Origin: Actinomadura sp. NAK00032
GTDB lineage: Bacteria; Actinomycetota; Actinomycetes; Streptosporangiales; Streptosporangiaceae
Direction of reading: 5' to 3'
DNA length: 64,000 bases
Assembly (NCBI RefSeq): GCF_013364275.1
Contig: NZ_CP054932.1
Coordinates: 7,750,001-7,814,000, forward strand
The notes below the pieces were generated by a model. That model ran no database searches, was not told where the DNA came from, and saw only the letters and a list, made by a program, of their open reading frames with translations. The translations under genes were made by a program, and so were the position numbers. Of the stretch, positions 3,478 through 14,063 are shown in pieces. Every line of letters starts with the position of its first letter. The first letter of the stretch is position 1.

Positions 3478-3499
3478 CGGCGCATACGCGGCACTCCGG

Positions 3500-3584
3500 T
3501 GCGGGCGGGGGGATTCGAACCCCCACGGTGTCGCCACCAACAGGACCTAAACCTGCCGCGTATACCTGATTTCGCCACGCCCGC
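3500..3584 (-). tRNA. tRNA-Leu (anticodon UAG)
   Basis: On the minus strand the acceptor stem GCGGGCG pairs with CGCCCGC, the discriminator is A, the T arm GTGGGGGTTCGAATCCCCC is canonical, and a long variable arm (class II) is present. The anticodon loop TTTAGGT gives UAG, decoding CUA leucine codons, which are rare in this GC-rich genome. CCA is not encoded. Confidence 0.93.
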
Positions 3585-3660: not shown

Positions 3661-3696
3661 TGACGGATTCGCGGTCCGTGCGCGCCTTCTAGCGTC
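3661..3696 (+). promoter_or_regulatory. lar regulon promoter upstream of larE
   Basis: TGACGGATTCGC (3661-3672), then 16 bp, then CTAGCGTC (3689-3696). TAGCGT fits the actinobacterial TAnnnT -10 and the 12-mer covers the -35 region (about -41 to -30). Exactly the same two blocks with the same 16-bp spacing occur upstream of the AraC-type gene at 14027-14063 (minus strand), while the spacer sequence is not conserved. This looks like a shared activator/sigma recognition unit. The larE start codon is 31 bp downstream. Confidence 0.65.
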
Positions 3697-3726
3697 CTGC
3701 GCAGACGACGCTGGAAGGAGATGCCC

Positions 3727-4545
3727 ATGGCCGACGACGCTCTGTCGCGCCTGCGCGGGGCGCTGGCCGCGCTGCCCGGCGCCGTGGTCGCCTACTCGGG
3801 CGGGGTGGACAGCTCCCTGCTGGCCTACGCGGCGCACCGCGAGCTCGGGGACGCCGCGCTGGCGGTGACCGCGGACTCGCCGTCGCTGGCCCGGTCGGAG
3901 CTGGCGGCGGCGCGGGCGGAGGCCCGGCGGCTGGGGATGCCGCACCGGGTGGTGACGACGCGGGAGCTGGAGGACGCCCGGTACGCCGCGAACGGCGCCG
4001 ACCGGTGCCGGTTCTGCAAAGAGGCCCTGATGCACGTGCTGTCCGCGGTGGCGGAGGCCGCCGGGGGCCGTCCGGTGCTGCTCGGGGTGAACCTGGACGA
4101 CCTGGACGACCACCGGCCGGGGCAGCGCGCCGCCCGCGAGCTGGGCGCCCGGTTCCCGCTGGTGGAGGCCGGGCTGGGCAAGGCGGCGGTGCGGGCGGCG
4201 GCGCAGCAGCTGGGGCTGCGCACGTGGGACAAGCCGGCGTCGGCGTGCCTGTCGTCGCGCCTGGCCTACGGGGTGCCGGTCACGCGGGACGCGCTGCGCC
4301 GCGTGGAGGACGCCGAGGAGGCGCTGCGCGGCGCCGGGTTCGGCGGGCGGGTGCGGGTGCGCGACCAGGGCGGCGGCCTCGCCCGGATCGAGGTGGAGCC
4401 GGTGGACGTCACGGCGGCGGCCGCGCGGGGCGCGGAGCTGGCCGGGCTGGTCAAGGAGGCCGGTTTCCGGTACGTGACGCTGGACCTGGAGGGCTACCGG
4501 CAGGGCAGCCACAACCTCGGCCTCACCCCGGTGCGGAACCGGTGA
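3727..4545 (+). CDS. larE: LarE, ATP-dependent sacrificial sulfur transferase of nickel-pincer cofactor synthesis
   Basis: 272 aa PP-loop enzyme that adenylates the cofactor precursor's carboxylates and donates sulfur. The SGGVDS PP-loop is at residues 24-29. Cysteines 94 and 97 (RCRFCK) and 174 (KPASACLSSR) are all present; in L. plantarum LarE the Cys of the last motif is the sacrificed sulfur donor, whereas LarE proteins with all three cysteines have been described to hold a [4Fe-4S] cluster that can carry catalytic sulfide. This protein therefore resembles the cluster type. Start at the second ATG (3727) because GGAAGGAG ends directly at 3720, leaving 6 nt; the ATG at 3721 would leave none. 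Its stop overlaps the next GTG by 4 bp (first gene of the larE-larB-larB-like-larC operon). Confidence 0.92.
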   Translation: MADDALSRLRGALAALPGAVVAYSGGVDSSLLAYAAHRELGDAALAVTADSPSLARSELAAARAEARRLGMPHRVVTTRELEDARYAANGADRCRFCKEALMHVLSAVAEAAGGRPVLLGVNLDDLDDHRPGQRAARELGARFPLVEAGLGKAAVRAAAQQLGLRTWDKPASACLSSRLAYGVPVTRDALRRVEDAEEALRGAGFGGRVRVRDQGGGLARIEVEPVDVTAAAARGAELAGLVKEAGFRYVTLDLEGYRQGSHNLGLTPVRNR

Positions 4546-5198
4546 GCGAACTGGGCTTCGCCCGCGTCGACCTCGACCGCGGCCGGCGGCGCGGGTACCC
4601 GGAGGCGGTGTTCTGCGAGGGCAAGACGGTGCCGGAGGTCGTCGCGATCGCGGCGAGCCTGGTCGGCGCGGGCACCGCGAACGTGCTGGCCACGCGGGCG
4701 TCCGCCGCGACACTGGCGGCCCTCGCCGACGCGTTCCCCGACGCGGTGGTGCACGAGCGGGCGCGGCTGGCCGTGCTGAACCCGGACAGCCGCTCCCGGA
4801 CGGGCAACGTCGCGGTGGTCTGCGGGCGTCCCGAGGACGAGCCCGCCGCCGAGGAGGCCGCGCTGGTCGCCGACGCGATGGGCAGCCGCGTGTCCCGCTG
4901 GTACGGGGCGCCGGTGGACGATCCCGCCGCCCTCCCCGGCTGGCTGGACGAGCACGAGCGCCCGCGCGCGTTCGTCGTCGCGGACGGGACGGGCGGCGCC
5001 CTCCCCACGCTCGTGTCCGGCCTGGTGGAGCAGACGGTCGTCGCGCTGCCGACCTCGTCCGGCGGGGACTTCGCCGGGCGCGCGGCGCTGCTGTCGGCGC
5101 TGAACTCCTGCTCGCCCGGCGTCGTCACGGTCAACATCGACAACGGGTTCGGCGCCGGGTACGCCGCCCATCTGATCAACGCGGGGGCGGGCGCATGA
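4542..5198 (+). CDS. larB: LarB-type enzyme keeping the catalytic cysteine but lacking the phosphate/AIR-loop motifs
   Basis: 218 aa. LarB carboxylates nicotinic acid adenine dinucleotide at C5 in the first step of NPN synthesis, using a PurE-like C-terminal domain. The N-terminal part (VDLDRGRRRGYPEAVFCEGKT) and the C-terminal NSCSPGVVTVNIDNGFGAGYAA block with Cys190 match LarB well. However the first PurE-domain loop, normally AGTSDxxVAEEA, here reads CGRPEDEPAAEEA; the DVGVAGLHRL motif is replaced by WYGAPVDDPAALPGWL; and the usual AGMEGALPS is ADGTGGALPT. The missing motifs are all intact in the next gene, which in turn lacks this Cys. GTG start overlaps larE (GTGA) and its end overlaps the next ATG (ATGA). 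Confidence 0.85.
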   Translation: MSELGFARVDLDRGRRRGYPEAVFCEGKTVPEVVAIAASLVGAGTANVLATRASAATLAALADAFPDAVVHERARLAVLNPDSRSRTGNVAVVCGRPEDEPAAEEAALVADAMGSRVSRWYGAPVDDPAALPGWLDEHERPRAFVVADGTGGALPTLVSGLVEQTVVALPTSSGGDFAGRAALLSALNSCSPGVVTVNIDNGFGAGYAAHLINAGAGA

Positions 5199-5794
5199 CG
5201 GTCGGGGTCGCCGAAGCGCGCGGTCTGCGTCCGGACGAGGTCCGCGCCCGTGTGAAAGAACTCCTGGCCCGCGGCCCGGAGACCGCGTTCCTGCGGCACG
5301 CCACCCCGGATCAGTTCGCGGCGGCCCGCGATGTGGCGCCGGAGGCGTCCCACAACGAACGGTCCGGGCTCGTCGTGCTCACCCGCCCACGCCCACGCCG
5401 CCCACTACCGGTAGCCGTGGTGTCGGCGGGAACCTCGGACCTGCCCGTCGCGGAGGAGGCGCTGACCGCCGCCGAGGCGCTCGGGCTCAGCCCGGCGCTC
5501 ACCGCCGACATCGGCGTCGCGGGACTGCACCGCCTGCTCGGCGTGCGCGCGGAGCTGAGCCGGGCGCGGGTGCTGATCGTCGCGGCGGGCATGGACGGCG
5601 CGCTGCCGTCGGCCGTGGCGCGGCTGGTGCCCCGGCCCGTGCTCGCGGTGCCGACCAGTGTCGGCTACGGCACCGCGTCCGGCGGGCTCGCCGCGCTGGC
5701 GGCGATGCTCGCCTCCGGCGCGCCGGGGCTGGCCGTGACCGGCATCGACGACGGCCTCGGAGCCGCGATCACCGCACGGAGGATGCTGACATGA
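5195..5794 (+). CDS. Second LarB-like protein with intact loop motifs but no cysteine
   Basis: 199 aa. The C-terminal 130 residues are clearly a LarB/PurE domain: VSAGTSDLPVAEEAL (77-90), DIGVAGLHRLLG (105-116), VAAGMDGALPSAVA (129-142) and AVPTSVGYGTASGGLAAL (151-168) are near consensus. The catalytic position reads LASGAPG: Gly175 replaces Cys and the following NIDNGFGAG is GIDDGLGAA; the protein contains no cysteine at all. Its N-terminal 65 residues are a degenerate version of the LarB N-domain. It overlaps both neighbours by 4 bp. PurE-type sites are built between subunits, so I infer a heteromer in which this chain supplies substrate-binding loops and the preceding chain supplies the nucleophile. 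Confidence 0.82.
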   Translation: MTVGVAEARGLRPDEVRARVKELLARGPETAFLRHATPDQFAAARDVAPEASHNERSGLVVLTRPRPRRPLPVAVVSAGTSDLPVAEEALTAAEALGLSPALTADIGVAGLHRLLGVRAELSRARVLIVAAGMDGALPSAVARLVPRPVLAVPTSVGYGTASGGLAALAAMLASGAPGLAVTGIDDGLGAAITARRMLT

Positions 5795-6516
5795 GGATCG
5801 CCTACTTCCACTGCTTCGCCGGCATCGCGGGCGACATGGCGCTGGGCGCTCTGCTCGACGCGGGCGCCGACCTGGAGGCGGTGCGCAAGATGCTGGCCGG
5901 GCTCGGCCTGCCCGGCTGGTCGCTGGACACCGAGCGCGTCACGCGGCGCGGCATCGCGGCGACCCGCGCGGTGGTGGGCGTCGAGGACGACGCGGTGTCG
6001 CGCACGCACGCGGTCATCGCCGCCCTGGTCGGGGAGGCGCCGCTGCCGGACCGGGTGCGGGAGCGGTCGCTCGCGGTGTTCCGGAACCTCGCCGAGGCGG
6101 AGGGCCGGGTGCACGGGATGCCCCCGGCCGACGTCCACTTCCACGAGGTCGGCGGCCACGACGCGATCGTGGACGTCGTCGGCACCTGCGCCGCGCTGGA
6201 GACCCTCGGCGTGGACGAGGTGGCCGCGCTGCCCATCCCCGTCGGGCAGGGCCTCATCACGACCCGGCACGGCCTGCTGCCCAACCCGGGCCCGGCGGTC
6301 GTGGAACTGCTCGCCCGCGCCCGCGCGCCGATCACCGGACGGGCCGTGAACGCCGAGATGAGCACGCCGACCGGCACCGCACTGCTGGTAACGCTGGCCG
6401 GCTCGTTCGGCCCCTTCCCGGACATGACGGTCACCGCGAACGGCTTCGGCGCAGGCACCAAGATCTTCGGCGACCTCCCGAACGTCACCCAGGTCGCCAT
6501 CGGCGAAGCCGGCTGA
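5791..6516 (+). CDS. larC: LarC N-terminal (LarC1) protein, LarC2 domain absent
   Basis: 241 aa. LarC is the CTP-dependent nickel insertase (cyclometallase) of NPN synthesis; full-length forms are roughly 400 aa, with a LarC1 part and a C-terminal LarC2 part that binds CTP. Here the LarC1 hallmarks are intact: YFHCFAGIAGDMALGALLDAGA at the start, VHFHEVGGHDAIVDVVG near residue 116, GLLPNPGPAVVELL and STPTGTALL. The protein ends at NGFGAGTKIFGDLPNVTQVAIG, exactly where LarC2 would begin. Only 73 bp separate it from the convergent operon, with a terminator in between, so no LarC2 reading frame or frameshift continuation exists here. Confidence 0.88.
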   Translation: MRIAYFHCFAGIAGDMALGALLDAGADLEAVRKMLAGLGLPGWSLDTERVTRRGIAATRAVVGVEDDAVSRTHAVIAALVGEAPLPDRVRERSLAVFRNLAEAEGRVHGMPPADVHFHEVGGHDAIVDVVGTCAALETLGVDEVAALPIPVGQGLITTRHGLLPNPGPAVVELLARARAPITGRAVNAEMSTPTGTALLVTLAGSFGPFPDMTVTANGFGAGTKIFGDLPNVTQVAIGEAG

Positions 6517-6540
6517 GGCCCGCTGAAAGCCCGGCGAAGC

Positions 6541-6585
6541 CGCTGAAACCCGCTGAGGTCGCGCCTGCCTCAGCGGGTTTCAGCG
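6541..6585. terminator. Bidirectional terminator between the two lar operons
   Basis: An 18-bp perfect inverted repeat (6541-6558 with 6568-6585; arm begins CGCTGAAACCCGCTGAGG) encloses a 9-nt loop. It lies 24 bp after the larC stop and 4 bp after the stop of the convergent acyltransferase gene, so it can end both operons. Confidence 0.85.
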
Positions 6586-6589
6586 TGTC

Positions 6590-7516
6590 CTAGCGGGGCC
6601 AGATGGTGCGGTTGGGTGGGCGGTCGGGGCGGGTGGCGGCCCAGATGCGGCGCCATTCGGCTACTTCGGGGCCGCGGGGGGCTTGGCGGCGGTCGCCGGC
6701 GCGCAGGGACGCCCACCAGCTCTCGTCGTGCTCGATCCACAGCCGGCCGACCGCGTCCTCCAGGCGGGCGTTGAAGGCGCTCGTCGTCTCGTCCGGGTCG
6801 GGGGCGAGCGGGCTGCCGTAGCGGACGGCCACGGGCGGGCGGCCCGGCTTCGGCCACATCCCGCCGCGCGGCATCGCCCGGTACGTGCCGCGCACCGCGA
6901 GCGGGACGGCGGGGACGCCCTGCTCGCGGCACAGCAGCGCCGCGCCCATCCGGAACCGGCGGGCCCAGCCGTCCTGGGAGCGGGTGCCCTCGGGGTAGAT
7001 GAGCAGGCTCCAGCCGTCCTGGAGCAGCTCGGCGGCCAGGTCGAGGGACCCGCCGGAGCCGTGCCGCTCGATCGGGAACGCGTTGAAGGCGAGCGCGGTG
7101 GCGACGGCGCGCCAGCGGGCGTCGAAGAAGTAGTCGGCCGCCGCCGCGACCGCGACGCGGCGGCGCAGCCGGACCGGCAGCGAGCCGAGGATCAGCGGCG
7201 TGTCCAGGTGGCTGGCGTGGTTGGCGACGAACACCACCGGCCCCTCCACGCCGTCGAGCAGGTCGGTGCCGTGGATCTCCGGGCGGGTCTGGGTCCAGGT
7301 CAGCGTGCGCAGGACGCCGTCGAGCGCGACCGTGCGGGCCGCGGCGGCGAGCGGCGTGCGCGCCCACGCGGTGGGGAACGGGCTCGCCTCCGGCACGCGC
7401 GCCCAGGGCGCGGCGGAGCGCGGGGCGGGCGCCCGGCCCCGCCAGTCGCGGCCCCGGCGCAGCAGCTTCACCTCCTGCGCGAGCGACAGCCGCCCGCTCT
7501 TGCGCCGCCCGCTCAT
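6590..7516 (-). CDS. PlsC-family acyltransferase of the LarA-like operon
   Basis: 308 aa, last gene of the minus-strand operon. The LPLAT/PlsC motifs are clear: NHASHLDT (HX4D catalytic motif), an FPIER segment and YPEGTRS (acceptor-phosphate binding), preceded by about 90 residues that are Arg/Ala/Pro-rich and not part of the domain. These enzymes usually transfer acyl groups to lysophosphatidic acid or related glycerol lipids. Here the gene begins with ATG overlapping the LarA-like stop by 4 bp (ATGA), so its substrate is probably made by the preceding enzymes rather than being a general phospholipid precursor. Another PlsC (21107) may serve housekeeping. Confidence 0.88.
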   Translation of the reverse strand: MSGRRKSGRLSLAQEVKLLRRGRDWRGRAPAPRSAAPWARVPEASPFPTAWARTPLAAAARTVALDGVLRTLTWTQTRPEIHGTDLLDGVEGPVVFVANHASHLDTPLILGSLPVRLRRRVAVAAAADYFFDARWRAVATALAFNAFPIERHGSGGSLDLAAELLQDGWSLLIYPEGTRSQDGWARRFRMGAALLCREQGVPAVPLAVRGTYRAMPRGGMWPKPGRPPVAVRYGSPLAPDPDETTSAFNARLEDAVGRLWIEHDESWWASLRAGDRRQAPRGPEVAEWRRIWAATRPDRPPNRTIWPR

Positions 7517-9090
7517 CGGACGTCCGCCATCGTCATCGGCGGGGTGTGCAGGTAGGTGAGGCTCGGGCTGTGCCCGACGGTCTCGCCCGCCATCTCCAGC
7601 GCGTCGGCCAGCGTGGTGGCGGCGCGGAAGCCGAGCCGCGCCGCGACCTTGCGGTCCGCGCCCACGCAGATGACGTCGCCCAGGTGCTCGCGCGCGTGGG
7701 CGCCCCAGTACCACATGTAGAACGGGTGGACGCCGTGGTAGGCGTAGCTGTTCCGGTACAGGTGGACGTACCAGGGGTCGGTGGCGTACTGCTCCTCGTA
7801 CTTGGTCTCGATCGTGGCCGGGTCCGTCGTCTGCGGGAGGACCTCGTCGTAGAAGTCGATGTAGCTGGGGTGGTGCAGCGAATGGAACTCCGCCGGCATC
7901 GGGTGGTACATGATGAGCGCCCCGCCCTCGCGCACCAGCGGACGGTTCCGGTACATGTTGAAGTAGTAGCCGAGCCCCAGGCACGCCACCAGGATCGGGT
8001 TCATCACCGAGTTGACGTTGTAGGGCGACAGGTACGGCAGGCCGAGCATCAGCACGTCCGACTGGCCCTGCACCTCGGTGAGCTGCTGCCGGTGGACGGC
8101 GGCGAGCGTCCGGCCGTGCACCTCGTCGGTGGCGCCCGCCTGCACGGACGTGACCTGGTACGGCGCGCGCAGGTTCTGCCACATGCGGCGGCGCGCCCCG
8201 GCGGGGGCGAGGTCGTTGGCGCGCTTGGCGGCCAGGAACGTCGCCTGGTCCCGCAGCGTCCACTCCCATTCGCGCCGGTTGAGGAAGCCGAACGGGGACG
8301 GGAACTGGTCGTTGTTGAGGGTGGCCTCGACGTGGAACACCCGCACCGACTCCGACAGCAGCGAGTGCATGCGGCCGTAGGAGTGGTGCATCGCCGAGTT
8401 CGGCGGGTCGTTGAACGACCGGGAGTTCTGCAGCGTGTGGACGTTGTGGTGGTGCCGCAGGCTCTTGTAGGACGCGAGGCCCACCGCGACGGACTTCGCG
8501 CCCCCGTTCATCGCGACCAGGTTGATGTTCACGTACACGATGAGGTCGCTCTCGGCGGCCCGCCGGTTGATCTCGACGTCCTCGCCGTGCCGGGTCTGCC
8601 CGAGCGCGACGAGGTTCTCGGGGTCCTCGGCGTCGTGGTTGCGGAGCCGGTCGGGCCAGAACGAGGCGAACACCCGCTCCCCGACGATGTGCCGGATCTC
8701 CGCCGGGGTCATCCGGCGGTGCAGCGCGTTCGCGGCGATCAGCTCGACGTCGTCCACGCCCGCCGCGGCGGCCAGCTCCAGGACCTGCTCGATGACCCGC
8801 TGCCGGACGTCGGGGGCGCGCATCGGCGGCAGCGGCAGCGACAGGTCGTCGAAGACGATCGTCAGCCGCATGCCCGCGCGCAGCAGCTCGGGCAGCGGCT
8901 CGCTGCCGAGCGGGTGCAGCAGGGCGTCCCGGATCCGGCCGGTCAGGTCGCGCACGCCGGGCAGCGAGTCCGGCGGGTAGACCACCCGGGTGCCGAGCGG
9001 GAACCGCTCCAGCCGGAACCCCTCCCCCTCGTGCACGAGAAGCGGCGGCGTCCGCTCGTCCACCTCCAGTACGAGGCCGGGTCTGCTCAT
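7513..9090 (-). CDS. Divergent LarA-superfamily (DUF2088) nickel-pincer enzyme
   Basis: 525 aa, about 100 longer than lactate racemase LarA. Against L. plantarum LarA (recalled from memory): the cofactor-binding Lys184 is kept as Lys199 in NGGAKS; the nickel ligand His200 is kept as His215, 16 residues on, within a well-matched GLASYKSLRHHHN; the acid/base His108 is kept as His124 (ANALHRRMT). But the second base His174 falls on Ile189, the DHTRP segment with Arg75 reads DDLSLP (81-86), and the substrate-carboxylate Lys298 region (YQAVKG) aligns with NSVMNP. So cofactor binding should be intact while the two-base lactate racemisation machinery is not. ATG start has GGAGGAG upstream and overlaps the dehydrogenase stop. 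Confidence 0.85.
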   Translation of the reverse strand: MSRPGLVLEVDERTPPLLVHEGEGFRLERFPLGTRVVYPPDSLPGVRDLTGRIRDALLHPLGSEPLPELLRAGMRLTIVFDDLSLPLPPMRAPDVRQRVIEQVLELAAAAGVDDVELIAANALHRRMTPAEIRHIVGERVFASFWPDRLRNHDAEDPENLVALGQTRHGEDVEINRRAAESDLIVYVNINLVAMNGGAKSVAVGLASYKSLRHHHNVHTLQNSRSFNDPPNSAMHHSYGRMHSLLSESVRVFHVEATLNNDQFPSPFGFLNRREWEWTLRDQATFLAAKRANDLAPAGARRRMWQNLRAPYQVTSVQAGATDEVHGRTLAAVHRQQLTEVQGQSDVLMLGLPYLSPYNVNSVMNPILVACLGLGYYFNMYRNRPLVREGGALIMYHPMPAEFHSLHHPSYIDFYDEVLPQTTDPATIETKYEEQYATDPWYVHLYRNSYAYHGVHPFYMWYWGAHAREHLGDVICVGADRKVAARLGFRAATTLADALEMAGETVGHSPSLTYLHTPPMTMADVR

Positions 9091-10304
9091 CCGTCGGCTC
9101 CTCCGTTCGGTTCGGCGGGCTCGTCCGCGCGCCGCTGCGGCGCGAACGCGATCTTGACGCTGCCCGAGCGCCCGGCGGCCAGCGCGTGCGACAGCGCGTC
9201 CCGCCAGCGGCTGAGGGGGTAGACCCCGTCGACGAAGCCCTCCAGGGCGTCGTGCGAGGCCAGGTCGAGCGCGGCGGCGAAGTCGGCGGCGCCGCGGCTG
9301 GCGTAGGAGCCGGCGATGGTCAGCTCCCGGTACCAGGCGGGGGTGAGGTCGGCGGGCTTGGACGGCATGCCCGACAGCAGCACGGTGCCGCCCGCCCGGA
9401 CGATCCGCAGCGCGGTGTCGAGGCCCTGCCCGCCGGTGCACTCGGCGACGATGTCGGCGCCGCCGAGCAGGTAGCCGGGGCCGAGTTCGGGCCGCACGAG
9501 GGAGCCGCCGGTGATGCGGCGCAGCCCGCGCAGCGCGTTCGCCGGGTCGATCGTCTCGGTGGCGCCGAGCGCGGTGGCGCGGCGCCGCTGCCCGGGGTGC
9601 CGGGCGATGACGGTGATCGGCCCGGCCGGGGTGAGCTCGCGCAGCGCGAGGACGGTCAGCAGCCCGACCGTGCCGGCGCCGACGACGGCGACGGACGCGC
9701 CGCGCGGCACGTCGATCCGCCGGACGGACCGGATCGCGCAGGCGAGCGGCTCGGCCAGCACCGCCCGCTCGGACGGCAGCGACGCGGGCACGGGGTGCAG
9801 CCGGTCGCGGTGCGCGACCAGCCGCTCGGACCAGCCCCCGCCGGTGTCGGCGCAGAACCCGGTCTGGAGGCCGGCGGAGACGCGGCCGGCGGTGACGCGG
9901 TCGCAGCGGTTCTCGTGGCCGTCCGCGCAGGACGCGCACAGGTCGAGGCCGCGCGTCCGGCACGACAGCACCGGGTCGGCGACGACGCGCGTCCCGGCGC
10001 GCAGGTCGCCGGCGTCGTCCATCAGCTCGGCGACGATCTCGTGCCCGGGGACGAACGGCGTCGACACCAGCGCCGACAGGTACGGCGACACCGTCCCGGC
10101 CGCCATCGACAGGTCGGACCCGCAGATGCCGGACAGGACGGGCTTCAGCCGCACCCAGTCCGGGCCGGGCGGCGGGGGCGGCTTGCGGTGCGACAGCCGC
10201 AGCGGCGCGAGCGAGGGGACGACGGCGGGGCGGAGCCGGCCGGGCAGCCGCCCGGCGGCGAGGTAGCGGGCGGGCGAGCGGTGGTATTCGAGGGCGAGGA
10301 TCAC
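9087..10304 (-). CDS. Zinc-dependent medium-chain alcohol dehydrogenase
   Basis: 405 aa MDR enzyme. Catalytic-zinc residues are seen in SGICGSDL (Cys) and PGHEIV (His-Glu); the structural-zinc lobe has four cysteines in the segment CRTRGLDLCASCADGHENRC. The Rossmann loop AVVGAGTVGLL follows. About 35 N-terminal residues and the PPPPPG linker are unusual. GTG start overlaps the preceding stop (GTGA) and is served by GGAGGAGG 5 nt upstream. In this operon it probably interconverts an alcohol with the aldehyde made by the neighbouring acyl reductase; the substrate is inferred only from context. Confidence 0.88.
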   Translation of the reverse strand: MILALEYHRSPARYLAAGRLPGRLRPAVVPSLAPLRLSHRKPPPPPGPDWVRLKPVLSGICGSDLSMAAGTVSPYLSALVSTPFVPGHEIVAELMDDAGDLRAGTRVVADPVLSCRTRGLDLCASCADGHENRCDRVTAGRVSAGLQTGFCADTGGGWSERLVAHRDRLHPVPASLPSERAVLAEPLACAIRSVRRIDVPRGASVAVVGAGTVGLLTVLALRELTPAGPITVIARHPGQRRRATALGATETIDPANALRGLRRITGGSLVRPELGPGYLLGGADIVAECTGGQGLDTALRIVRAGGTVLLSGMPSKPADLTPAWYRELTIAGSYASRGAADFAAALDLASHDALEGFVDGVYPLSRWRDALSHALAAGRSGSVKIAFAPQRRADEPAEPNGGADG

Positions 10305-12604
10305 CGGGCCTCCTCCAGGGCGGCGTCGAGCACGGCGGACACCTTGCCGCCGGCGCCGCCCCACTCGGCGACCGTCCAGCGGAGCCGCTTGGCGTGCCGG
10401 TAGAGGTGGGCGTCGGGGTTGACCGCGACGGGGTGGCCGACCTGCTCCAGCACGGGGCGGTCGGAGTAGTGGTCACCGTAGGCCCAGCTCCCGGCGAGGT
10501 CGACGCCCTCGTCGCGGGCCCATTCGCGCAGCCACGCGGCGCGCGCCTCGCCGATCAGCGGCGGCGCCTCGAAGTGGCCGGTGCAGCGCCCGTCGACCAC
10601 CCGCAGCCGCGCCGCCAGCACGTCGTCGAACAGGGTGCGCAGCGGCTCGACGAAGTAGTCGACGGTGCCGGTGAGCAGGACGGTGCGGTGCCCGGCGGCG
10701 CGGTGGGCGCGGATGCGGCGGATCGCCTGCGGCCAGGCGCGGCGCAGCAGCACGTCGCCGAGCCGCTCGCGGGCCAGCGCGCGCAGCTCCGCCTCGCCGG
10801 CGCCCTCGTAGCGGCGGACGAACTCGCGCAGGAACTCGCCGCGGTCGCGGTGCTCGGCGCGCAGGTAGCGCGGCGCGTTGCGCAGGACGGGCAGCAGCGC
10901 CCCCGGCCAGGACCGGACGGGCGCGTCGAGCAGCCGCGCCCACAGGTACGCCTCGACGACGTCGGACGCGACGATCGTCCCGTCCAGGTCGAAGACGGCG
11001 GCGACGTCGCCGCGCTCCTCGAAGGGGGCCGGGGCGGGCTTGGGCGCGCGGGGCAGCGGCGGGCCGTAGAAGGCGGCGGTCACGGCGGGGCAGTGCACGT
11101 CGCGGAGGTAGTGCGGCCAGTCGATGGCGGCCGAGTCGCAGCCCTCGCCGTCGGGGAGCGTCCGGTCCAGCGCGAGGGTGGCGCCGTCGGCGTAGACGAC
11201 CTCGGCGGCGCCGTAGGCCCCGTACAGGTCGCGGTAGCGGCGCAGCATCCGCACCTCGCGGCCCTTGCGGTGCAGGTCGCGCTGCCAGGCGCGGGTGCGC
11301 TCGCCGCCGGGGAGGGCGAGCAGGGCGCGCTCGGCGACGTCCATCGCGCGTTCGGCGGTGCCGAGGACGCGTTCGGCCTGCGACTCGCTGAGCAGCCTCA
11401 GGTCGCGGTTGCGGACGGCGCCGCGGCCGTCGGGGGCGGGCAGCGGGTGCTCGGCGAAGTGCTCCTGGACGAGTTCCACCAGCCGCTGCAGCGTCAGCGG
11501 GTTCCGGGCGCCGGAGCCGACGTGGTAGTAGGCGGGCCCGCCGGGTTCGGGCGGGACGACGGCGGCGGCGAGCAGCGCGTTCACCACCAGGTCGACCGGG
11601 ATGATGTCGACGATGCCGTCCGGGATCCCGGCGAGCGCGCGCAGCATCCCCTGCCCGTAGGCGAGGATCAGCGGGTCGGCCATCTTGAACCCGTCGATCC
11701 AGCCGGGGTAGGGGTGGCGCAGCGCGCTCTCCACGATCGCCGGGCGGACGACCGACAGCGGCACCCCGGCCTCGCGCGCGGTGTCCTCCGCCGCCCGCTC
11801 CCCGAGCGCCTTGGTGAAGGTGTAGACGTCCGGCCAGCCCAGGCTGCGGGCGCGCTCGCGGCCGTAGGCGACGAGCCGGTCGGCGACGGCGTCGCGGCGG
11901 CGGCGCTCGGTGTCGGCGGCGACCGCGCTCGGGCCCGCCTTGCCCTGCGCCTTGAGCGCGGCGGCGCGGAGCCGGGCGAGCACCTCGGGGCGGCGCGAGT
12001 CGCTCTCGGCGGCCCGGCGCGCCTCCAGCGCGCAGTCCAGCTCGGTGCGCCAGTCGATGGCGTGCTCCAGGGCGTCCTCGCGGACGACGCCCTTGCGGGA
12101 GCCCGCGACGTAGGCGGTGGAGACGTGCACCAGGTGCGGGCGGCGGCCGGTGCGGCGCGCGGCGGCCAGGACGCCCTCGTAGAGGTTGACGGTGCCGACG
12201 ACGTTGGTGCGGAACGCCTCGTCGATCGGCGGGTCGAACGACACGACGGACGCGCCGTGCACGACCACGTCCACGTCGTCCGGCACGTCGGGGGCGGCGT
12301 GGGACAGGTCGGCGGGGACGAGCCGCACCCGCTCGCGGACGATCTCGCGGGCCCGGTCCTCGCCGACCCGCTCCCGCCACGGCCCGAACACGGGCTTGGC
12401 GATCAGCTCGGCGAGCCGGTCGCCGGCGGTGGCGCCGGGCCGCTCCCGCACCAGCACGACGACGTTCGTGGACGGGTGCCCCGACAGCAGCCGCTCCAGC
12501 AGCGCCTGCCCGATGAAGCCGGTCGCCCCGGTGAGCAGGACGGTGCGTCCCGCGAGACCGGCGGGCTCCCCGCGCACACCGCGCCCGGCGGGCCCGGCGC
12601 TCAC
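10301..12604 (-). CDS. Fusion of fatty-acyl reductase (extended SDR) and HAD-IB phosphatase
   Basis: 767 aa. N-terminal half (about 20-400): male-sterility/NAD-binding-4 type reductase with TGATGFIGQALLERLL, HVSTAYVAGSRKG, and the active-site YTFTK (YxxxK); such domains reduce acyl-CoA or acyl-ACP to aldehyde or alcohol. A central sterile-C-like helical region follows. C-terminal part (about 545-767): HAD-IB hydrolase of the SerB type with motif I DLDGT, the TGT motif in VLLTGTVDYF, and YGDHYSD as motif IV. GTG start overlaps the di-iron gene by 4 bp. Combining reductase and phosphatase in one chain suggests a phosphorylated acyl- or glycerol-type intermediate, but this is inference. Confidence 0.87.
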   Translation of the reverse strand: MSAGPAGRGVRGEPAGLAGRTVLLTGATGFIGQALLERLLSGHPSTNVVVLVRERPGATAGDRLAELIAKPVFGPWRERVGEDRAREIVRERVRLVPADLSHAAPDVPDDVDVVVHGASVVSFDPPIDEAFRTNVVGTVNLYEGVLAAARRTGRRPHLVHVSTAYVAGSRKGVVREDALEHAIDWRTELDCALEARRAAESDSRRPEVLARLRAAALKAQGKAGPSAVAADTERRRRDAVADRLVAYGRERARSLGWPDVYTFTKALGERAAEDTAREAGVPLSVVRPAIVESALRHPYPGWIDGFKMADPLILAYGQGMLRALAGIPDGIVDIIPVDLVVNALLAAAVVPPEPGGPAYYHVGSGARNPLTLQRLVELVQEHFAEHPLPAPDGRGAVRNRDLRLLSESQAERVLGTAERAMDVAERALLALPGGERTRAWQRDLHRKGREVRMLRRYRDLYGAYGAAEVVYADGATLALDRTLPDGEGCDSAAIDWPHYLRDVHCPAVTAAFYGPPLPRAPKPAPAPFEERGDVAAVFDLDGTIVASDVVEAYLWARLLDAPVRSWPGALLPVLRNAPRYLRAEHRDRGEFLREFVRRYEGAGEAELRALARERLGDVLLRRAWPQAIRRIRAHRAAGHRTVLLTGTVDYFVEPLRTLFDDVLAARLRVVDGRCTGHFEAPPLIGEARAAWLREWARDEGVDLAGSWAYGDHYSDRPVLEQVGHPVAVNPDAHLYRHAKRLRWTVAEWGGAGGKVSAVLDAALEEAR

Positions 12605-13527
12605 GCCGCGGCCTCGCGGCGCTCGCGGTGGACGCCGGCGCGGGCCAGGGCCCCGTCGGTGGACAGCTCGGGGACGCGGCCCGGCGGCATGCGCTCCAGC
12701 GAGCGGCGCCGGGCGTCCTCGGCCAGCGTCGCGCCGGCGAAGCCGGGCAGCTCGGCGATCGTCGCGTCGATGCGGCGCATCCGGTCGAGCCCGGCGTCGT
12801 CGCCGAACAGCCACACCAGGGCGAAGTCGCTCTCCTCCTGGGGGCGCAGCCCCGTGCCGACCGGTGCCCACAGGCGGTGCATGGCCCAGCGCGCCAGCCG
12901 CCGCGCGCGGGCGCTCCGCGCGAGCCGCATCCGCGCCTGCGCCCGGTAGAAGGCGAAGTGGCGGCGCTCGTCCTTGATGACGCGCCGCAGGATGTCGCGC
13001 AGCACCGGGTTGGCGCTGCGCTCGATCATCGCCTGGTAGCTGTTGATCGCGCTGAGCTCGTTCATCGCGCCCCAGGTCATCTGGATCGCGACGAAGTCGC
13101 GGGTCAGCGCGGAGCCGAGCATCGAGACGAGGTGGCCGGTGTAGACGCTGCGGCCCAGCGCCCGCCGGATCCGCTCGTTGCGGACGGTCTTGGTCGGGTA
13201 CGGCGAGGCGGCGTTGACCTTCTCCCGGTCGGGGGCCAGCGTGAAGCCCGCCTCCCCGAGGAACCGGGAGAACGCCTCCCCGTGCCAGAACTCCTCGTAG
13301 ATCCAGCAGCTCATGAACGCCGTGATCTCCGGGTCGAACGCGGCCCGGGTGGCGAGGAGGTCGCGCGCGTACATCACGGTGTGGGTCTCGATGTCCATCA
13401 TGAACGTCAGGCAGCGCGCCTCCGCACCGGAGACCGGGTGGGCGGAGATCTGGTCCCACGCGACTCCCGACAGGTCCACCGCCCGCGAGTTCCGCACGTA
13501 GCGGTCGAGGTCGAAATCCTGCGTCAT
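12601..13527 (-). CDS. Ferritin-like di-iron protein (putative oxygenase/desaturase)
   Basis: 308 aa, all-helical. Two ExxH motifs are visible (EFWH inside YEEFWHGEAF and ERRH inside IKDERRHFAFY) plus acidic residues on the other two helices (DIETHT and MNELSAINSY), the arrangement of a four-helix-bundle di-iron site as in AurF and acyl-ACP desaturases. The specific reaction is unknown; activation of dioxygen on an acyl or amine substrate is the usual chemistry. ATG at 13527 chosen: a TAGCGT -10 ends 7 nt before it, suggesting a leaderless transcript; a GTG 9 bp upstream is possible. First of five genes joined by 4-bp overlaps. Confidence 0.8.
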   Translation of the reverse strand: MTQDFDLDRYVRNSRAVDLSGVAWDQISAHPVSGAEARCLTFMMDIETHTVMYARDLLATRAAFDPEITAFMSCWIYEEFWHGEAFSRFLGEAGFTLAPDREKVNAASPYPTKTVRNERIRRALGRSVYTGHLVSMLGSALTRDFVAIQMTWGAMNELSAINSYQAMIERSANPVLRDILRRVIKDERRHFAFYRAQARMRLARSARARRLARWAMHRLWAPVGTGLRPQEESDFALVWLFGDDAGLDRMRRIDATIAELPGFAGATLAEDARRRSLERMPPGRVPELSTDGALARAGVHRERREAAA

Positions 13528-13534
13528 GGTCACC

Positions 13535-13543
13535 ACGCTAGAA
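13535..13543 (-). promoter_or_regulatory. Candidate leaderless promoter of the di-iron/LarA-like operon
   Basis: On the minus strand TTCTAGCGT occurs here, the same 9-mer that forms the larE -10 (3687-3695). TAGCGT lies 7 nt before the ATG at 13527, the spacing of leaderless starts. The upstream 12-mer of the lar promoter is not conserved at this site, so this may be a secondary internal promoter. Confidence 0.45.
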
Positions 13544-13576
13544 AGGTCGGATGTGTCTGGATAAGGACGGAGTGCG

Positions 13577-13990
13577 TCATGCGGCGGACCCGGTGCGCCA
13601 ATCCCAGCGGCGCAGCGCGCGCCGCAGCGAGCGGGCGTCGGAGTAGCCGAGGCGGCGGGCCACCGCCTCGCGGGTCAGGGCGCCGTCCTCAAGCAGGAGC
13701 CGGGCGCTGCGGCCGCGCACGTACTCCAGTTCGTCGCGCCAGCTCGTGCCCGCGTCATGGAGCCGGCGCTGGAGGGTGCGGGAACTCACCGCCATCCGGG
13801 ACGCCACCCAGCCCACGGTGACGGGGCCGTCGGGCAGCGCGGTCGCGATGAGATGGCGCATGTCGTCCAGCCAGTCCGGGTCCGGGGCCGGGTCGGGGCA
13901 CGGCCGCAGGTCCGGATAGGCGCCTGCGGGCGGACGGCCCGGCTCCTGGTGCGCGCACCGCAGCACGCTGGCGAAGACGAGAACGGACAT
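13577..13990 (-). CDS. AraC-type DNA-binding protein lacking a sensor domain
   Basis: 137 aa. Residues about 50-130 form an AraC double helix-turn-helix: VTVGWVASRMAVSSRTLQRRL (first HTH) and REAVARRLGYSDARSLRRALRRW (second HTH). No cupin-like ligand domain precedes it; the first 45 residues are Pro/Asp-rich. It is encoded 49 bp upstream of, and on the same strand as, the LarA-like operon, and its own promoter carries the conserved box also found before larE. It is the obvious candidate regulator of both operons. ATG preceded by AAGGAG and GGGGG. Confidence 0.8.
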   Translation of the reverse strand: MSVLVFASVLRCAHQEPGRPPAGAYPDLRPCPDPAPDPDWLDDMRHLIATALPDGPVTVGWVASRMAVSSRTLQRRLHDAGTSWRDELEYVRGRSARLLLEDGALTREAVARRLGYSDARSLRRALRRWDWRTGSAA

Positions 13991-14026
13991 GGCGGCCCCC
14001 TTGCTCCTTAATCGGCCTACGCCGCC

Positions 14027-14063
14027 GACGCTAGGGAGCGGAGGGAGCGGGCGAATCCGTCAA
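14027..14063 (-). promoter_or_regulatory. lar regulon promoter upstream of the AraC-type gene
   Basis: Minus strand: TTGACGGATTCGC (14063-14051), 16 bp, CTAGCGTC (14034-14027). Identical blocks and spacing to the larE promoter (3661-3696); of the 16 spacer bases only about four agree, the random expectation. The box overlaps the stop codon of the upstream kinase gene. The AraC-type start codon is 37 bp further on. Confidence 0.65.

Follow-up and report, generated by a model that had tools for sequence, protein, structure and literature searches.

A LarA homologue of the LarAH14 family is encoded in a conserved actinobacterial operon with fatty acyl-CoA reductase-like and glycerolipid acyltransferase genes

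We analysed a 64,000-nt stretch of the genome of Actinomadura sp. NAK00032, a single contig of 9.43 Mb (NZ_CP054932.1, positions 7,750,001-7,814,000; hereafter the window, whose own positions are used below), in which a homologue of the lactate racemase LarA is encoded among genes of lipid metabolism. An earlier note on this DNA had described ten genes in two convergent operons, and all ten were found where it had placed them (Table 1). The plus-strand operon carries lar genes predicted to serve synthesis of the nickel-pincer nucleotide (NPN), and the minus-strand operon carries the LarA homologue with an acyltransferase, a zinc-dependent dehydrogenase (ADH), a fatty acyl-CoA reductase-like protein fused to a HAD phosphatase (FAR-HAD), a di-iron protein and an AraC-type protein. 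Overlaps of 4 bp (ATGA or GTGA) occur at seven junctions, three on the plus strand (larE to larC) and four on the minus strand (di-iron to plsC), the latter exactly as the note had stated; the AraC and di-iron genes do not overlap. The description of three genes needs correction: larC encodes only the LarC1 half, larB2 lacks the motif cysteine and the AraC-type protein is very short. Between the operons, positions 6517-6589 fold at -47.9 kcal/mol (z -6.6; none of 200 shuffles was equally stable) and contain a stem without mismatch (17 Watson-Crick pairs and one G-U). A shared terminator had been proposed here; the hairpin exists, but it has no T-run and was not among the results of a simple terminator scan.

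Table 1. Features of the two convergent operons (window positions).
Feature	Position	Strand	Evidence
larE, ATP-dependent sulfur transferase for NPN synthesis	3721 (or 3727)-4545	+	TIGR00268 285.1 bits (cut-off 150)
larB, nicotinate adenine dinucleotide carboxylase/hydrolase	4542-5198	+	NF033503 180.4 bits (cut-off 175); SCSPG cysteine motif kept
larB2, second LarB (paralogue), shorter N-terminus, SGAPG	5195-5794	+	NF033503 186.9 bits
larC, LarC1 half only, 241 aa	5791-6516	+	PF01969 match at 1-234 of 375
Bidirectional hairpin, 18-pair stem and 7-nt loop, presumed shared terminator	6542-6584	between convergent operons	fold z -6.6
PlsC-type acyltransferase	6590-7516	-	PF01553 66.2 bits; NHxSxxD and PEGTR motifs
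LarAH14-type LarA homologue, 525 aa, predicted NPN enzyme, one catalytic His	7513-9090	-	NF052592 918.7 bits
Zn-dependent MDR-family dehydrogenase, polyol/ketose-reductase-like (ADH)	9087-10304	-	PF08240 and PF00107
FAR-HAD, fatty acyl-CoA reductase-like part fused to HAD-IB phosphatase	10301-12604	-	PF07993 and PF12710
Soluble di-iron (ferritin-like) protein, accessory, lineage-specific	12601-13527 (or 13536)	-	PF02915 weak; ExxH pairs EFWH, ERRH
AraC-type helix-turn-helix (HTH) protein, 137 aa, C-terminal HTH, lineage-specific	13577-13990	-	PF12833

The organisation of the minus-strand operon was compared across related loci (given below by our L numbers, with G for genomes and f for family labels). 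Eighty loci came from named organisms, and 10 of these ended too near larA to be scored. In 68 of the remaining 70, FAR, ADH, LarA and PlsC were encoded together on one strand in that order, the exceptions being L105, where ADH was not found, and L056, where PlsC was not found. A further 50 loci were sampled: 30 regions with family members, and 20 regions from 19 genomes of family f19 picked to test the missing PlsC. Leaving aside one that lacked LarA (L156) and one that was too short, 48 were scored, of which 22 carried PlsC, 23, all from f19, carried PlsY upstream of FAR, and three deviated. Counting either acyltransferase, the four-gene set was thus kept in 45 of the 48. The deviating loci were L113, which is the same record as L056, L140, which lacks ADH, and L155, whose LarA has none of the partner genes beside it; this f19 genome encodes FAR and PlsY on a second contig (L156), and no ADH was found next to either part. 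PlsY, which is unrelated to PlsC, fills the acyltransferase slot in 23 of 24 scored f19 loci and was confirmed as PF02660 in three of them. Several f19 loci also carry genes between ADH and LarA. Such conservation (68/70 and 45/48) is more than chance, and the operon spans 18 actinobacterial family labels.

Unbiased clustering of the neighbours in 57 loci likewise placed the four core genes at the head of the list (57, 55, 38 and 32 loci, with ADH and PlsC undercounted because single-linkage was applied to chosen frames). The next clusters comprised 15, 10 and 10 loci, and their sequences suggest LarE, LarC and a TetR-type regulator. The conserved unit is made up of FAR-HAD, ADH, LarAH14 and a glycerophosphate acyltransferase. 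The earlier note's view of a LarA-like enzyme in an acyl/lipid system is borne out by this gene set, but the unit has four genes and not ten. A ten-gene system was rejected on counts: the di-iron gene is found in 9 of the 80 named loci, and larB/larC within the fetched stretch of 27 of the 80 (16 of the 41 with 10 kb on each side). By the same counts the lar and FAR operons adjoin only in some lineages, and AraC, the di-iron gene and neighbouring lar genes are each confined to particular lineages. Among the 80 named loci, an AraC homologue was listed only in L033 of Actinomadura meyerae, the nearest named relative returned (98% identity in LarA).

Homologues of LarA outside the family differ in their surroundings. 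Ten homologues scoring under the family cut-off, at 25-43% identity, were sampled and none had such an operon; one locus (L144) has a weak FAR-like match 5 kb off on the opposite strand. Four neighbourhoods of this kind were annotated: two contain genes for CoA-transferase III and for acyl-CoA-ligase-like proteins, a third has a glycyl-radical enzyme, and in the fourth there is a hydroxyisobutyrate-dehydrogenase-like gene. Homologues of 42-44% identity lie beside CoA-transferase III genes at L143 and L145, and beside a glycyl-radical enzyme at L148.

Co-occurrence was then counted in 396 Actinomycetota genomes, with LarAH14 called at its curated cut-off and FAR-HAD at E<=1e-40. LarAH14 was present in 86 genomes (23 family labels), FAR-HAD in 93 and both in 83. 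Among the 10 FAR-HAD genomes outside the 86, five have LarAH14 fragments and the other five are drafts that are 62-94% complete. LarC was detected in 248 of the 396 genomes and in 76 of the 86 with LarAH14; the 10 LarAH14 genomes without it include three with LarE over cut-off and seven without; the LarE check also covered G095, which has a LarAH14 fragment only. FAR-HAD is seldom seen without LarAH14, which speaks against the first refuting condition of the earlier note, that the minus-strand genes occur routinely without lar genes, although 11 of the 93 FAR-HAD genomes have no LarC match.

The LarA homologue of the window is a full-length member of the LarAH14/15/16 family, matching positions 2-520 of the 520 of NF052592 far above the curated cut-off of 740 bits; with the lactate racemase model NF033504 it scores 70.8 bits against a cut-off of 460. 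It is predicted to have the two-domain LarA fold. The earlier note had known of no NPN enzyme in a pathway of this kind, and none appeared in the literature searched, but the LarAH14 family itself had already been named, after the groups of Desguin et al. (2020). That literature assigns no function to LarAH14 and gives no reaction for LarAH14/15/16; the fixed operon is described in the present analysis. No paper in the search linked an NPN enzyme to lipid synthesis, although the gene contexts of LarA homologues (Table S1 of PMC7583248), which lay outside it, may tabulate neighbours.

Active-site residues were read from 111 aligned sequences (the window protein and those of 110 loci at >=50% identity, with L056 and L113 being one record), mapped to LarA numbering through printed phmmer and profile alignments. 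Asp82, His124, Lys199 and His215, the equivalents of Asp72, the first catalytic His108, the NPN-linking Lys184 and the Ni-ligand His200, were invariant in all 111. In contrast, the position of Arg75, which in LarA binds the substrate carboxylate, held Leu in 92 sequences, Ile in 17, Val in one and Cys in one, and that of the second catalytic histidine, His174, held Asn in 91 and Thr in 20 and never His. The exact structural equivalent of His174 is uncertain because Asn188, which is invariant and also not His, lies two residues before the aligned position. Loss of His174 in LarAH groups 14 and 15 had been noted before. In LarA of I. pallida, the equivalent arginine and both histidines bind the substrate carboxylate, according to the available part of PMC11851776. 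As the carboxylate-binding arginine and the second histidine are replaced in LarAH14, we doubt that its substrate is an ordinary 2-hydroxy acid, and the 2-hydroxy-acid chemistry that the earlier note cites for the LarA superfamily appears doubtful here. The family also has a longer helical segment between the domains (residues 259-313), of 55-57 residues against 48-52 in the 10 more distant homologues, which were counted separately; Glu274, Glu276 and Trp277 within it are >=97% conserved in the family, at positions where 7-8 of the 10 distant homologues show gaps.

Known LarA enzymes differ from LarAH14. Lactate racemase (NF033504; PDB 5huq, 9eia) has the second histidine and the carboxylate arginine that LarAH14 lacks. 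The single-histidine enzymes LarASp and LarABw (PDB 9q2u/9q3k and 9q3j; PMC12611868) are ~26% identical to the window protein; their Lys76 aligns with its Leu85, their absolutely conserved Asn is Asn or Thr in LarAH14, and their neighbours are glycolytic and sugar genes, whereas those of LarAH14 are lipid genes.

The partner enzymes are consistent with a lipid pathway. Residues 14-508 of FAR-HAD match the fatty acyl-CoA reductase of structure 7eoz, with 165.7 bits to PF07993 (NAD_binding_4), the TGxTGFxG and YxxxK motifs and C-terminal similarity; in 113 aligned FAR-HAD sequences, the window included, these short-chain dehydrogenase/reductase motifs and the three HAD aspartates are kept in 109-113, Asp541 apart. 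The solved relatives of ADH are a putative dehydrogenase (4ej6), a ketose reductase (1e3j), a butanediol dehydrogenase (6ie0) and an iditol dehydrogenase (4oh1), and the only one found for PlsC is the lysophosphatidic acid acyltransferase 5kym.

Taking these results together, we favour, at a rough probability of 0.55, the reading that the operon serves a fatty-alcohol/glycerolipid pathway in which LarAH14, instead of racemising a free 2-hydroxy acid, transfers a hydride on one face of a hydroxy-lipid, and that the window holds the Actinomadura copy of an old and widespread actinobacterial lipid operon. Gene content, order, co-occurrence, the acyltransferase swap, residue conservation and the predicted fold are results of the analysis; cofactor loading, substrate, pathway direction and product we infer. 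A four-gene operon with two unrelated glycerol-phosphate acyltransferases in one slot makes fatty alcohols, acyl- or alkyl-glycerol phosphates and acyl-dihydroxyacetone phosphate (acyl-DHAP) candidate substrates. FAR-HAD would yield a fatty alcohol (or aldehyde) by reducing a fatty acyl thioester and would also remove a phosphate, ADH would interconvert a ketone and a secondary alcohol, and PlsC, or PlsY in one family, would add an acyl chain to a glycerol-phosphate unit. LarAH14, charged with NPN supplied by LarE, LarB and LarC, would take a hydride from a carbon that bears a hydroxyl group, in an intermediate that is a lipid or a glycerol phosphate; with its single catalytic histidine it would give the hydride back, either from the side on which it was taken or to an adjacent carbon, the net step being an isomerisation or a transient oxidation. 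The product of the pathway would be a glycerolipid that contains a fatty alcohol or derives from one, with LarAH14 acting on a non-carboxylate hydroxyl. Desguin et al. (PMC7583248) had suggested that LarA-superfamily groups without a catalytic histidine could perform another hydride-mediated reaction. The position of LarAH14 between enzymes that make fatty alcohol and acylate glycerol points to an undescribed step of lipid metabolism and, if the reading is right, nickel-pincer chemistry extends into the lipid metabolism of common soil bacteria.

Several results weigh against this reading. Neither LarC nor LarE passed its cut-off in 7 of the 86 LarAH14 genomes, among them near-complete drafts of 95, 96 and 98% (G263, G294 and G106); NPN dependence is therefore not universal by this test, and these seven genomes are the strongest result against a strict dependence. 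Three of the 86 (G216, G387 and G394) have no FAR-HAD at the threshold used, and in FAR-HAD itself Asp541 is replaced by Glu in 33 of 113 sequences. The search for ADH found none in L105, none in L140 and none next to the two halves of the split G065 locus. In 5 of the 8 f19 genomes checked there is no PlsY match besides that of the operon, which for that reason may be the housekeeping copy; it keeps the link to glycerol-phosphate acylation but may not be dedicated to the operon. Finally, a solute-binding protein lies within the fetched 20 kb at five f19 loci (L130, with PF00496, L133, L134, L137 and L141), which could point to uptake.

A conventional racemase or epimerase, acting on a carboxylated hydroxy compound such as a 2-hydroxy fatty acid or glycerate derivative that is later built into a lipid, is an unlikely alternative. 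LarA homologues of known activity do work in this way, as far as the available parts of PMC7583248 and PMC11770544 go, and two homologues of ~44% identity adjoin CoA-transferase III genes. However, the carboxylate arginine is Leu or Ile in 109 of 111 LarAH14 sequences and the second histidine is replaced in every one, and a Frankia LarAH14 given NPN made in vitro showed none of the seven racemase or epimerase activities tested in 2020 (PMC7583248, whose available part does not state cofactor uptake).

We consider it rather improbable that the operon makes an ether glycerolipid with LarAH14 helping to form or process the ether in place of the animal enzyme AGPS. The parts would correspond to the animal route, with FAR as FAR1, PlsC as AGPAT, the Zn-dehydrogenase as acyl/alkyl-DHAP reductase and HAD as the phosphatase, and also to the elb operon of M. 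xanthus, where ElbD has FAR-like, ACS, ACP and acyltransferase domains and ElbB is a HAD protein. From the available part of its description (PMC9131029), the elb operon shares with the window-type operon a FAR-like protein, a PlsC-like acyltransferase, a HAD phosphatase and an NAD-type oxidoreductase; the latter operon has no conserved acyl-CoA ligase or acyl carrier protein and has a LarA homologue. AGPS-like proteins occur in 24 of the 86 LarAH14 genomes at E<=1e-60 (26.1 expected) and in 10 at the strict threshold of about 1e-85 (17.4 expected; p 0.03 for depletion). AGPS homologues are thus not linked to LarAH14, which leaves the ether-forming slot empty in most LarAH14 genomes, and neither an AGPS nor an ElbD gene was among the conserved neighbour clusters printed. 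On the other side, the literature searches turned up no ether lipids in any organism with a demonstrated copy of the operon, homologues of ElbD and Ger in some Actinobacteriota metagenome-assembled genomes could make ethers otherwise (PMC11868695, available part), and the window's own genome (G000) encodes two AGPS-like proteins elsewhere. These flavoproteins (C1:6212886-6214538 and 2165216-2166769; L179 and L180) match alkyl-DHAP synthase better than glycolate oxidase or D-lactate dehydrogenase. The proposal that an AGPS elsewhere in the genome completes an ether pathway was weakened, since LarAH14 genomes show no AGPS enrichment, though G000 has two.

Very unlikely, in our estimate, is a catabolic operon that dismantles a host or environmental glycerolipid, with PlsC acting in recycling. 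Breakdown pathways often include Zn-dehydrogenases and HAD phosphatases, and the solute-binding protein of the five f19 loci would suit uptake, but FAR and PlsC or PlsY work in the biosynthetic direction in known systems, and among the 57 clustered loci only the four core genes form clusters in >15 loci. We give as little credence to a LarAH14 that has lost its dependence on NPN, the adjoining lar genes being a coincidence of position. The seven genomes without LarC and LarE and, in Actinomadura, the truncated LarC and odd second LarB would agree with it, but the Lys, Ni-ligand His, Asp and catalytic His are invariant in all 111 sequences, and the LarA homologue is the only recognised client of the lar operon in the window's genome, which has one PF09861 match and one PF01969 match.

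Transient oxidation, with NAD, is used by S-adenosylhomocysteine hydrolase. If LarAH14 were itself a nickel-pincer synthase of ether lipids (alkylglycerols), it would transiently oxidise an acylated glycerol phosphate at C2 by hydride transfer to NPN, labilising the ester-bearing C1; a fatty alcohol from FAR would displace the acyl group, and the hydride would return to the same face. Such a synthase would need one catalytic histidine and no carboxylate-binding arginine, as seen in LarAH14, and would provide a second, flavin-independent route to the AGPS reaction and, by the literature searched, the first NPN enzyme not isomerising a hydroxy acid. The loss of the His and the Arg and the absent AGPS association agree with it, but the window's genome carries two AGPS-like genes, no case of NPN serving to form an ether is known to us, and we regard it as the least probable of the readings considered.

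The lar genes of the window have peculiarities of their own. CTP is bound by the LarC2 domain of LarC. Its LarC1 domain is shared by the window protein, which aligns to LarC 12bi over 1-239 but has no LarC2, and a LarC2 query gave no match elsewhere in the 9.43-Mb genome (best E 0.27); it therefore differs from the CTP-dependent cyclometallase LarC (PMC11796402, available part). LarC ends after LarC1 in all 10 Actinomadura loci, 2-5 residues past the match. Among 20 LarC proteins from other genera, 12 have a (V/I)DDL-type segment after LarC1, seven end in different tails, 28-221 residues long, and the last (L098) also stops there. The cysteine of the LarB intermediate is presumably that of the SC.PG active-site motif. 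It is replaced by Gly (SGAPG) in the 9 of 9 Actinomadura larB2 copies printed, and kept in LarB of other genera wherever the motif was printed; larB2, which overlaps the normal larB, was seen only in Actinomadura loci. The cysteinyl-pyridine intermediate of LarB is known to us from the title of a reference in PMC11851776.

In the di-iron protein, the E/ExxH/E/ExxH ligand positions are invariant in 10 homologues. A profile search against solved structures gave a designed helix bundle at 1e-5 and marginal matches to R2-like oxidases and acyl-ACP desaturases (E 0.03-0.3), with no clear family. Proteins 36-41% identical to it lie near lar genes and FAR at two Streptomyces-type and four Pseudonocardiales loci (L050, L051, L052, L053, L063 and L108). 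A tRNA-Leu gene on the minus strand (3498-3584) directly precedes the lar operon and marks a possible integration site.

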